Shown here one piece after another: positions 46,813-50,230 of a stretch of 64,000 bases of DNA. Origin of the DNA: Candidatus Thermoflexus tengchongensis (lineage in GTDB: Bacteria; Chloroflexota; Anaerolineae; Thermoflexales; Thermoflexaceae); NCBI GenBank assembly GCA_016842085.1, contig JAEVEX010000016.1, positions 1 to 64,000 of the forward strand, read 5' to 3'. A program made the position numbers and the translations under genes. Numbering within the stretch: position 1 is the first letter of the stretch; every line of letters begins with the position of its first letter. Under the pieces are notes generated by a model. That model did no database searches. It was not told the origin of the DNA and saw only the letters and a list, made by a program, of their open reading frames with translations.

Positions 46813-48204
46813 TTACTCGTAAAACGCCGCATGGATACGGCGGACGGCCTCCTCCGCCTCGCTCTCCGCGACCACGAGGGAGAGGTTGTATTCCGAAGAC
46901 CCCTGGGCGATAGAGAGGACATTGATGCGGCCGTTCCCCAGGGCGTTGAAAACCCGGGCCGCGATCCCGGGCGTCGCTCGCAGCCCTGCCCCGACCACAG
47001 CGATCACCGCCACCCGATCCATCGCCCAGATGTCCTCAATATCCCGCCGGGCGATCTCCCGTTCGAACGCTTTCCGCAACGCTCGAACCACCTGGGGGGC
47101 CGCCGAGGAAGGGATGACGAAGCATATGTTTTGTTCCGAAGAGGATTGAGAGATCATCAGGATGCTGACCCCCAGTTCGGCCACCGTAGCGAAGGTCCGT
47201 GCCGCCACCCCGGGCACCCCGAGCATCCCCCGGCCCTCCACCGTGACCAGGCTCAGATTCTTGATCAGAGTCACCGCCTTCACCCGGCCATTGCCCCGGG
47301 GCTCCGGGACGATCCAGGTGCCCGGATGTTGCGGGTTCATGGTGTTCAGGATGCGCACGGGAATCCGCCGGTCCATGCATGGAAGCAATGTGCGCGGATG
47401 GAGGACTTTCGCCCCGAAGTAAGCCATCTCGGCGGCCTCGATGTAAGAGAGCTCCGGGATCGTGCGGGCGTTCGGCACGATCTTCGGATCCGCGCTCATC
47501 ACGCCATCCACATCGGTCCAGATCCACACCGCCTCCGCGTCCAGCGCGTAGCCCAGGATGGTGGCGGAGAAATCGGACCCGCCGCGCCCCAGGGTAGTTG
47601 GCCGACCTTCAGGGGTGGCACCGATGAACCCGGTCACCACCGGGAGGATCCCCTGCTCCAGAAGGGGCAGCAGAAGGGCCTGCGCCCGTGCCCGGGTCTG
47701 TTCCAGATCCGGGGAAGCCTCTCCAAAGCGATCATCGGTAACCAGGAACGTATCCGCATCGATGGCACGCGCCGGGATGCCCCGGGCCCGCAGAACCGCA
47801 GCCAGGATGCGGGCGCTCCAGCGCTCCCCCATCCCGGCGAGCAGGTCTGCGGTGGATGGAGACAGCTCCCTCAGCGCCTCCACCGCCCGGAGCACGGTCT
47901 CCACCCGCTCAAGCCCCTCCCGGAGCTCCGCCTCCAGGGTTCGCGCTTCCTCCTCCGGCAGCCCCAGCGCCCGAACCGTGTCCTGATGTCGGTCCCGAAC
48001 GGCGGCCAGGGCCGGGATCCAATCCGGCTCCCCCCGGGCGGCCTGGTGGCTCATCTGGATCAGCGCGTCGGTCACCCCGGCCATCGCCGAGACCACCACG
48101 ACCAGGCGGGGATCCGCGACGCGGTGTAGCGCGATCAGATCCGCCACCTGCTGAAACCGGGCTGCGTTCCCCACAGAGGTCCCCCCGAACTTCATCACCC
48201 GCAT
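46813..48204 (-). CDS. lysC: Aspartate kinase
   Basis: A 463-residue monofunctional aspartokinase, first step of the aspartate family (Lys, Thr, Met, Ile). The N-terminus MRVMKFGGTSVGN, the LVVVVSAMAGVTDAL strand, RGGSDFSATILGYALDAEAVWIWTDVDGV and the substrate loop are typical. Two C-terminal ACT domains (VTVEGRGMLGVPGVAARTF and IAVVGAGLRATPGIAARVF) allow feedback inhibition. GGAGGC precedes the ATG at 48204. Length and ACT arrangement resemble ThrA/LysC class-III enzymes without the homoserine dehydrogenase part. Transcription is predicted to be controlled by the attenuator at 48227-48395; its Thr/Met codons fit inhibition by threonine and methionine supply. Confidence 0.95.
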   Translation of the reverse strand: MRVMKFGGTSVGNAARFQQVADLIALHRVADPRLVVVVSAMAGVTDALIQMSHQAARGEPDWIPALAAVRDRHQDTVRALGLPEEEARTLEAELREGLERVETVLRAVEALRELSPSTADLLAGMGERWSARILAAVLRARGIPARAIDADTFLVTDDRFGEASPDLEQTRARAQALLLPLLEQGILPVVTGFIGATPEGRPTTLGRGGSDFSATILGYALDAEAVWIWTDVDGVMSADPKIVPNARTIPELSYIEAAEMAYFGAKVLHPRTLLPCMDRRIPVRILNTMNPQHPGTWIVPEPRGNGRVKAVTLIKNLSLVTVEGRGMLGVPGVAARTFATVAELGVSILMISQSSSEQNICFVIPSSAAPQVVRALRKAFEREIARRDIEDIWAMDRVAVIAVVGAGLRATPGIAARVFNALGNGRINVLSIAQGSSEYNLSLVVAESEAEEAVRRIHAAFYE

Positions 48205-48226
48205 CGCCGCCTCCTGATCCAGAGAT

Positions 48227-48263
48227 AAAAAACGACCCCCCGACCGTTGCCGGCCGGGGGGTC
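48227..48263 (-). terminator. Attenuator (intrinsic terminator) in the aspartate kinase leader
   Basis: In RNA sense the stem GACCCCCCG / CGGGGGGUC (9 bp) is extended by a G-U pair and CCG/CGG, capped by a GCAA tetraloop, and followed after one base by U6 (48227-48232). It stops 22 nt before the kinase start codon, so termination here would prevent kinase expression. This is the cleanest rho-independent signal in the window. Confidence 0.92.
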
Positions 48264-48330
48264 TGTTTCCTTACGCTCTGAGGAACTGCGCCCTCTACAT
48301 CAGACAACAACCCGGGCATTCCCCCGGCCG
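48251..48330 (-). promoter_or_regulatory. Antiterminator pairing of the aspartate kinase leader
   Basis: The RNA segment CGGCCGGGGG inside the leader peptide frame (48321-48330) is a perfect 10-bp complement of CCCCCGGCCG, the 5' arm of the terminator (48251-48260). The two structures are mutually exclusive. A competing upstream pairing (CCGGC with GCCGG around 48325-48342) and a local CCGGG/CCCGG hairpin complete the classic 1:2, 2:3, 3:4 scheme. Confidence 0.8.
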
Positions 48331-48368
48331 TTCGTCCAGCCGGTGGTCATCATCCCGGTTGTGGTCAT
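48300..48368 (-). CDS. Thr/Met-rich leader peptide controlling aspartate kinase
   Basis: A 22-codon frame starting MTTTGMMTTGW and ending in RVVV-stop at 48300. It contains six Thr and three Met codons in the first twelve or so positions, followed by the antiterminator segment near its end. ATG 48368 has GGAG at 6 nt; in-frame ATGs at 48374 and 48395 would lengthen it to 24 or 31 residues (MRWGILEMA prefix). A ribosome pausing at Thr or Met codons would leave the 48321-48330 segment free to block the terminator. A ribosome reaching the stop would cover it and allow termination. Composition, position and RNA structure together make this a transcription-attenuation leader like thrL. Confidence 0.85.
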   Translation of the reverse strand: MTTTGMMTTGWTNGRGNARVVV

Positions 48369-48456
48369 CGCCATCTCCAAGATCCCCCAGCGCATTAACG
48401 CCACACCCCTGAAATCTCTTGCGAAAGCGGGATGAACGCAGCGATGTTTGTTCGAT

Positions 48457-48484
48457 ATTCTATCCAGCTCCGGCAACCTGTCAA
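48457..48484 (-). promoter_or_regulatory. Promoter of the aspartate kinase leader transcript
   Basis: Consensus TTGACA (48479-48484) and TAGAAT (48457-48462) with a 16-nt spacer on the minus strand. The start would be near 48450, giving a leader RNA of about 220 nt up to the attenuator. Confidence 0.75.
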
Positions 48485-48656: not shown

Positions 48657-48772
48657 GAAACTCGCCTGGCTCCGTGGCATGGGGGTGGTCTTCCCGCTTA
48701 TCCCGTCGCCCGGGCCTTCGATCGGCGACCCGGCAGGCGAAGAATCAACCACCGATCCTTCCGGAGGCACCC

Positions 48773-50230
48773 ATGGATCTGGACGCGCTGCACACGCCGA
48801 CCCGCTTCCTTCAATCGATGGGCCTTTCCTTCCCTCCCGAACTGGACCTTCAGGAACTGGAGAACTGGTGGGAAGCGGAGGGGAAGGCGATCTCGATGAT
48901 GATCGATCGAATGGGCACGCCGTGGCTGCGCGCTTATGACCGCTTCGGCCGCCGCATCGATGAGATCCTCTATCCTCCCGATTACCGCCGGATGCTCCTC
49001 CAGGGCTATCGTGCGGGCGCGGTCTGGCACGCCTTCGAAGGCGCGGGCCTGTCTGCGACCTTCCTCATCGGCTACCTCACGGCCTTCTACGATGCCGGCC
49101 TTTACTGCCCCTATACCGTCTCCCTGGCCACCGCCCTCGCCCTGCACAAATACGGCGATCCGGATCTCCAGGCTCGCTTCCTCCCCCCGCTCCTACGACG
49201 GGATGGGGAGGTCTGGCAGGGCGCCACCTGGATGACGGAGGCCGGCGGGGGCTCGGATCTGGGGGCGACGGTGGAAACCCTGGCCCGGCCCGACGGAGGA
49301 TCATGGCGGCTGACGGGGGAGAAATATTTCGCCAGCAACGCTGGAGCGGAGCTGGCGGTCGTCGCCGCCCGGCCTGAGGGTGCCCCCCGCACCGTCCGCG
49401 GACTGGCCCTCTTCCTGCTCCCCCGCTACCGGGAGGACGGCAGCCTGAACTATCTCATCCGGCGCCTGAAGGATAAGATCGGCACCCGTTCCGTGCCCAC
49501 CGGCGAGGTGGAGCTGCGAGATAGTGAGGCCTATCTCCTGGGTCGCCAGGAGACCGGCATCTATCAGATCCTGGAGGTCCTCAACGTCTCCCGCGTCGCC
49601 AACAGCATCGGCAGCGTCGCCCTGATGCAGCGGGCCATCGCCGAGGCGCTGGCCTTCGCGGAGCGCCGCGTCGCCTTCGGCCGCCCTATCCTCCAGCATC
49701 CGCTGATGCGCCGCCAGTTCGCCGAGCGCATCCGCGACCTCCGGGCCGCCTTCGCCCTGGCCTGGACGACGGTCCGTCTGCTGGAGGAAGTCTGGCCGGA
49801 ACATCCTCCTTACTCGGAACGCTATCACCTCTTCCGCCTGCTCACCCATCTGGCCAAATACTGGACTGCGGAGCAGGCGGTGCAGACGGCGAAGTGGGCG
49901 ATGGAGGTCCACGGTGGGATGGGCGTGCTGGGGGAGTATCCGGTGGAGCGCTGGCTGCGGGAGGCCATGATTCTACCCATCTGGGAGGGGACGCCCCACC
50001 GCCAGATCCTGGACGGCCTGGAGGCCATGGCCCGCAAGGGGGCCCATCGCGCGCTGATGGAGATGCTGGCCGCCAGGGCGGATCCCCGAGCGCTGGAGGA
50101 GATGTTCGAGCGGGTGGAGGCCCATCTGCGCCTGTCTTCCGAGGAGCAGGAAGCGCAGGCCGAAGCGCTGTTCCAGGATCTGGCCCGCTTCACAGCGGAT
50201 ACGCTCAGCCGGAGCTTTCCGGGCGGATGA
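48773..50230 (+). CDS. Acyl-CoA dehydrogenase, AidB-like
   Basis: A 485-residue flavoprotein of the acyl-CoA dehydrogenase superfamily. WQGATWMTEAGGGSDLGATVE (flavin/substrate loop), WRLTGEKYFASNAGAELAVVAARPEGAP, DKIGTRSVPTGEVEL and VANSIGSVALMQRAIAEALAFAERRVAFGRPI are visible. The TEAGGGSD plus GEKYFASNA pattern and the MEVHGGMGVLGEYPVERWLREAMILPIWEGTPH block match the AidB/DszC-like branch. ATG 48773 follows GGAGG at 5 nt; longer frames upstream cross the promoter. Either isovaleryl-CoA-type dehydrogenation or an alkylation-response role is possible. It stands alone, convergent with the ABC genes. Confidence 0.9.
   Translation: MDLDALHTPTRFLQSMGLSFPPELDLQELENWWEAEGKAISMMIDRMGTPWLRAYDRFGRRIDEILYPPDYRRMLLQGYRAGAVWHAFEGAGLSATFLIGYLTAFYDAGLYCPYTVSLATALALHKYGDPDLQARFLPPLLRRDGEVWQGATWMTEAGGGSDLGATVETLARPDGGSWRLTGEKYFASNAGAELAVVAARPEGAPRTVRGLALFLLPRYREDGSLNYLIRRLKDKIGTRSVPTGEVELRDSEAYLLGRQETGIYQILEVLNVSRVANSIGSVALMQRAIAEALAFAERRVAFGRPILQHPLMRRQFAERIRDLRAAFALAWTTVRLLEEVWPEHPPYSERYHLFRLLTHLAKYWTAEQAVQTAKWAMEVHGGMGVLGEYPVERWLREAMILPIWEGTPHRQILDGLEAMARKGAHRALMEMLAARADPRALEEMFERVEAHLRLSSEEQEAQAEALFQDLARFTADTLSRSFPGG

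Follow-up and report, generated by a model that had tools for sequence, protein, structure and literature searches.

It is very likely that the aspartate kinase gene in the window, the whole stretch of 64,000 nucleotides analysed here, is controlled by a classical ribosome-mediated transcription attenuator. Before the gene stand a promoter, a short open reading frame (ORF) with threonine and methionine codons, an antiterminator and an intrinsic terminator (Table 1). The antiterminator and terminator pairings are mutually exclusive, and the elements are conserved in eight genomes. From these elements we infer the mechanism as a whole, that is, the translation of the leader, the positions of the ribosome, the dependence on tRNA and the effect on the kinase gene.

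The kinase encoded in the window shares 98% identity with the one from 'Candidatus Thermoflexus japonica', which places the window in the genus Thermoflexus (Chloroflexota). It is a stand-alone aspartate kinase. Its upstream neighbour, an acyl-CoA dehydrogenase-like gene (48674-50230, plus strand), is transcribed divergently, which assigns the terminator to the kinase leader and means that it ends no other gene's transcript. No U run follows the terminator hairpin in the window when it is read on the plus strand.

Table 1. Features of the aspartate kinase gene and its leader in the window
Feature	Position	Strand	Sequence or remark
Sigma-70-type promoter	48457..48484	-	TTGACA-N16-TAGAAT; 11/12 matches; TTGACA and TAnAAT in 8/8 genus members
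Leader peptide ORF, 31 aa	48300..48395	-	MRWGILEMAMTTTGMMTTGWTNGRGNARVVV (stop); in-frame upstream ATG in 8/8 genomes
Shorter frame of the preliminary description	48300..48368	-	MTTTGMMTTGWTNGRGNARVVV; ATG 48368, GGAG 6 nt upstream
Putative control codons	48342..48353	-	ATG ATG ACC ACC (Met Met Thr Thr); same peptide in 7/8 species, Pro Met Thr Thr in L006
Region 1, 5' arm of protecting hairpin (inner helix)	48337..48343	-	weaker outer helix extends to 48366
Region 2	48321..48330	-	CGGCCGGGGG; partner of region 1 (protector) or region 3 (antiterminator)
Region 3, terminator 5' arm and region 2 partner	48251..48263	-	GACCCCCCGGCCG
Region 4, terminator 3' arm	48234..48246	-	CGGTCGGGGGGTC; 97% of cells paired, both-side changes at two pairs
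U6 tract of intrinsic terminator	48227..48232	-	expected end of terminated leader RNA, ~225 nt
Shine-Dalgarno (SD) sequence of aspartate kinase	48210..48215	-	AGGAGG
Aspartate kinase, putatively controlled gene	46813..48204	-	AA_kinase and ACT domains; ATG at 48204

A preliminary description of this DNA had reported the promoter, a 13-pair stem with a GCAA loop and U6 ending 22 nt before the kinase start, and a perfect 10-bp complement between the end of a short frame (48321-48330) and the terminator arm (48251-48260). All of these are present. The promoter occupies 48484-48457, and transcription is expected to start near 48451 on the minus strand. Two promoter-like sites were found in the region against an average of 0.1 in shuffled sequences, and four terminator-like sites against 0.4. 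The terminator consists of the stem 48263-48251/48246-48234 and the GCAA loop, followed by G and U6. It stands between the leader ORF and the kinase gene, and its stem has a free energy of -31.5 kcal/mol at 37 °C. The 224-nt leader folds with a z-score of -4.2 relative to shuffles.

The complement between 48330-48321 and 48260-48251 is exact over 10 nt, and a match of this length to the 5' arm of the terminator arose in 19 of 5000 dinucleotide shuffles (0.4%). Region 2 can also pair with region 1 (48343-48337 with 48330-48324), forming a putative protecting hairpin. The attenuator had been called complete. The elements listed for it are all real, but this hairpin was missing from the list, and without it the switch would be incomplete.

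The three pairings were counted on an alignment of the eight genomes as the percentage of cells that form standard pairs. In the terminator (3:4), 97% of cells are paired. Two of its 13 pairs have changes on both sides, in four cells altogether, three of which probably go back to one inherited change from G-C to A-U. In the antiterminator (2:3), 92.5% of cells are paired and eight of 10 pairs are invariant across the eight species. Because these pairs hardly vary, covariation cannot be claimed for the antiterminator. In the protecting hairpin (1:2), 94% of cells are paired in the inner helix and 76% in the outer helix, and covariation shows no excess over column shuffles of the eight-genome alignment. 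Eight related genomes hold little independent covariation. Covarying stems, which had been proposed as a check, are represented by the two terminator pairs and are absent or weak elsewhere.

The protecting hairpin is the minimum-energy fold in the window (z = -4.8 for this segment alone) and in locus L003 (z = -4.3). In L004, L005, L006, and L036, too, the best fold is a version of this hairpin, though not always one that is unusual relative to shuffles. Different local hairpins are more stable in L007 and L008 at 37 °C. At 72 °C, the terminator is stable in all eight species (-14.1 to -17.5 kcal/mol), and the 2:3 pairing has -7.1 to -11.4 kcal/mol. The listed 1:2 pairs are clearly stable at this temperature only in the window and L003, with small energies in most species.

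Nine genomes of the genus were available, of which eight cover the leader region; in the ninth, the contig ends within the kinase gene. Genes for aspartate kinase, homoserine dehydrogenase, and threonine synthase-family proteins are present in all nine. The same layout precedes the aspartate kinase gene in all eight assessable genomes: the promoter, a short ORF with a Met-Thr-Thr-Gly core, a hairpin within the ORF, the antiterminator segment, a G+C-rich terminator, and a U-rich tail. The conserved segments include region 2 (GCCGGGGG) and region 3 (ACCCCCCGGCC), and outside the conserved segments the leader, like the upstream and intergenic sequence, has diverged in large part. Conservation of the leader codons and stems in close relatives, on which the preliminary description had made its reading depend, thus extends to the promoter, the Thr/Met core, regions 2 and 3, and the terminator in 8/8 members. 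Region 2 is kept at third codon positions as well, which is what a constraint from pairing would produce. At the eight loci, a covariance model of the leader, built from these same sequences, scored 123-157 bits, and none of its hits elsewhere in 396 genomes of the class exceeded 36 bits; its E-values are rough. On these scores, the leader family is confined to Thermoflexus as far as the sample goes.

The translation start of the leader is most likely ATG 48395 rather than ATG 48368, because an in-frame upstream ATG is present in all eight genomes and ATG 48368 is not conserved. The codon corresponding to ATG 48368 is GCG in L003, AAA in L006, and ACG in L036. The short frame described earlier, with GGAG 6 nt before its ATG, does exist, but its start is the part that did not hold. 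An SD-like AGGGGTG lies upstream of ATG 48395 in the window, and GGAGG lies ~8-9 nt before the upstream ATG in L007, L008, and L036. The leader peptide of L006, read by eye from the sequence, is MPPKQSFRSVSPATKTTTEPMTTGWKSSRGDAWLAT.

The 31 codons of the leader include six Thr and four internal Met, and the core is kept in the eight species. The putative control codons are ATG 48353-48351, ATG 48350-48348, ACC 48347-48345, and ACC 48344-48342. Within the core, no species departs from Thr at positions 6, 10, and 11 or from Met at position 9, and a later ACG codon (48335-48333) is not conserved. The Thr/Met part of the frame has 67, 82, and 110 pairwise differences at codon positions 1, 2, and 3. 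After this part, the pattern is reversed (110, 88, and 81), as expected where RNA pairing and not the peptide is selected. Among single-change codon differences in the Thr/Met core, 38% are synonymous against 26% expected at random. The coding signal, resting on 24 codons in eight related genomes, appears modest and lies in the expected direction.

The following sequence of events is proposed. RNA polymerase would start near 48451 and transcribe the 31-codon leader ORF. When charged tRNA is sufficient, the leading ribosome would reach the stop codon at 48302-48300 and cover the RNA to ~48320. The inner 1:2 helix would re-form behind it and occupy region 2, leaving region 3 to pair with region 4, and RNA synthesis would stop at the U tract near 48227. 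Under a shortage of threonyl-tRNA, or secondarily of methionyl-tRNA, the ribosome would stall at the ATG ATG ACC ACC codons. The ribosome was placed by assuming the standard footprint of about 30 nt. With either ACC in the A site, the ribosome would cover most or all of region 1 and leave region 2 free. Region 2 would then pair with region 3, blocking the terminator and letting transcription proceed into the kinase gene. A stall at the later ACG would place the ribosome on region 2 itself. Judging from these positions, the conserved codons would be those that work best as stall sites. A second attenuator in Thermoflexus, before ilvB, appears to follow the same logic with matching amino acids, and this is counted in favour of the kinase attenuator. 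The Thr leader at locus L031, from a different family, counts likewise.

Threonine or methionine had been named as the signal. Both are supported by the conserved codons, but not equally. Threonine appears to be the best-supported signal and methionine the second, since Thr codons dominate the core and their stall position would cover region 1. It is unlikely that the attenuator senses mainly methionine, another residue of the frame such as Trp or the Val at its end, or a general slowdown of translation instead of threonine. Met codons are almost as conserved as Thr codons, and the frame ends in three Val codons in the window and L003. However, neither the Val run nor the Trp codon is conserved in every species, whereas the core Thr residues are invariant, and a ribosome stalled at the first Met codon would, from its position, reach region 1 only at its edge.

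Two explanations do without a reading of the leader codons. With a stem as strong as that in the window, the terminator could be constitutive, holding back kinase transcription to a fixed degree regardless of amino acids while the small frame stays untranslated. This is very unlikely given the exact in-frame region 2, which is rare in shuffles yet kept in all eight species, and given the conservation of the frame and its Thr/Met codons. It is more improbable still that the leader RNA works as a riboswitch for a metabolite or a tRNA, whether of the T-box, SAM, or lysine type or of one not yet described, in which the Thr/Met frame is incidental. No Rfam family reached its threshold in the window: the leader stayed below the gathering threshold of Thr_leader (RF00506), and the SAM riboswitch (RF00162) had no match in the window. 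The best match at a lax threshold was His_leader (22.3 bits against 49 required, E 0.18), which is no riboswitch. The kinase leader contains neither a T-box sequence (GGTGGNACCRCG) nor an Rfam T-box match. The Thr/Met codons would be dispensable for a riboswitch, yet they are the best conserved part of the frame. What speaks for a riboswitch is that SAM riboswitches and T-boxes occupy the same place before other Chloroflexota aspartate kinase genes, so exchange of sensors does happen.

The analysis also covered 121 upstream regions of aspartate kinase genes (ask) from the same class outside the genus, a sample that leans to the best matches. T-boxes were recognised by their box sequence in about 15 other Chloroflexota loci. 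SAM riboswitches had Rfam matches in L020, L025, and L039, from other genera, and their consensus was seen in several more. Both sensors fit a pathway that leads to threonine and methionine, and the sensor at aspartate kinase seems to have been exchanged several times in Chloroflexota. One other clear Thr-leader attenuator was found among the 121, in another Chloroflexota family (L031). Its leader MAGALLASYTTTTGTPATGRCFALRRVCQK, with GGAGG, is followed by a hairpin of CACCGGCC/GGCCGGTG, an 11-pair match of regions 2 and 3 (20 of 2000 shuffles), and a terminator with U5. The L031 case is one genome, and the leader is absent from the one related genome sampled in its family (L029, L310).

Thr leaders were also observed at other loci. 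In a third Chloroflexota family (L183, genome G339), a Thr/Met leader MSISPFTTTNTMTTTARTRQPSLPVG and a terminator lie 248-115 nt before the aspartate kinase gene; no clear region 2 was seen there by eye, and this is a weaker candidate. In Myxococcus (L101, L104, and L109), the region upstream of the aspartate kinase gene has a terminator and a leader frame in which as many as ten Thr codons follow one another (MLTTTTTTTTTTPRRARVV), and the antiterminator match of L101 is moderate (32 of 1000 shuffles). In Acidobacteria (L110), a Thr leader MMMITMATTTNAARPV and then a terminator precede the gene, without a significant antiterminator (970 of 1000 shuffles as good).

The ilvB gene of Thermoflexus, with leuA downstream, is preceded in eight genomes (L212-L219) by an Ile/Leu/Val leader, e.g., MAFGLVVLSLVLIALILRGILRLGEAMPVWEGTTPG containing CGTTTGGGAGG, and then by a strong terminator GGGAGGGGGCCTCCCAAACGGGAGGCCCCCTCCC with a U run. 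One of these loci, the region upstream of ilvB on G000:C73 (L216), lies at G000:C73:18396 on the plus strand. Region 2 complements the terminator over 11-12 nt, and a match of at least 11 nt arose in 11 of 5000 shuffles. With a fixed criterion of at least eight Ile, Leu, or Val in 12 residues plus a terminator, ilvB leaders were found at five of 25 loci of other families (L286, L291, L293, L307, and L309, from five families). The same criterion found none in the 121 ask upstream regions and none in 25 antisense controls. A GTT(T)GGG segment at or just after the end of the leader frame, seen by eye, is common to all five and Thermoflexus, and downstream of it lies a C-rich terminator arm with which it could pair.

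The hom, thrC, and hisG genes of Thermoflexus have no convincing leader attenuator. Rfam scans of one or two loci each of ilvB, hom, trpE, and thrC gave no family above threshold. Upstream of trpE in Thermoflexus (L231-L238), a conserved T-box-like leader GGGTGGCACCACGGG is followed by a terminator CGCCCGTCCCTCA...GAGGGACGGGCG and is often directly preceded by a second terminator-like hairpin. The copy in the genome of the window (L234) is below the Rfam threshold.

Ribosome-mediated attenuation is probably an established and repeatedly used control of amino-acid genes in Chloroflexota, including at ~70 °C, with ilvB leaders across families (GTTGGG-type region 2) and separately evolved Thr(/Met) ask leaders in Thermoflexus and one other family. 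The ilvB leaders make attenuation in Chloroflexota more than a single curiosity. Together with the kinase case, they suggest that attenuation either has a far wider distribution or evolved more than once, and they point to tight coupling of transcription to translation in Chloroflexota and at high temperature. T. hugenholtzii, which grows at 67.5-75 °C, was predicted by pathway analysis to be unable to make threonine or methionine de novo (PMC8129789). Contrary to this prediction, a conserved switch reading Thr/Met implies that the aspartate kinase pathway is used and regulated.

This kind of mechanism is known, and Chloroflexota is apparently a new phylum for leader-peptide attenuation. Such attenuators are on record from Proteobacteria and Actinobacteria (PMC1262725) as well as from Firmicutes (PMC2965389, PMC9413887). 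The earlier statement that they are rare outside the first two phyla is roughly right, but it omits the Firmicutes cases. The open-access literature, with most subscription journals outside its scope, yielded no report of attenuation or leader peptides in Chloroflexi or Chloroflexus. A survey by Vitreschak et al. in 2004 is said to have found leader attenuators also in Thermotogales and Bacteroidetes/Chlorobi.

The attenuator of the E. coli thr operon (thrL; RF00506) has a Thr/Ile leader and precedes an operon with a fused kinase-homoserine dehydrogenase. It shares with the Thermoflexus leader a Thr-rich leader before an aspartate kinase gene, an intrinsic terminator, and an alternative antiterminator. 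The Thermoflexus leader differs in that it does not match the covariance model, its second amino acid is Met instead of Ile, its gene is a stand-alone kinase, and its host belongs to Chloroflexota and grows near 70 °C. The likeness to the his operon leader (RF00514) is a weak one of architecture, 22.3 bits over the whole model and far under the threshold; the Thermoflexus leader has no His codons and is not a member by score. The trp and ilvB leaders of Actinobacteria (PMC1262725) and the his leaders of Firmicutes (PMC2965389, PMC9413887) have in common with it a short ORF with regulatory codons and an antiterminator complementary to a terminator arm. They belong to other genes, amino acids, and phyla, and the likeness seen is one of architecture. 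The ilvB leader of Thermoflexus comes from the same species, with the same type of putative mechanism and a region 2 within the frame, whereas its peptide is rich in Ile, Leu, and Val and its terminator has a different sequence.
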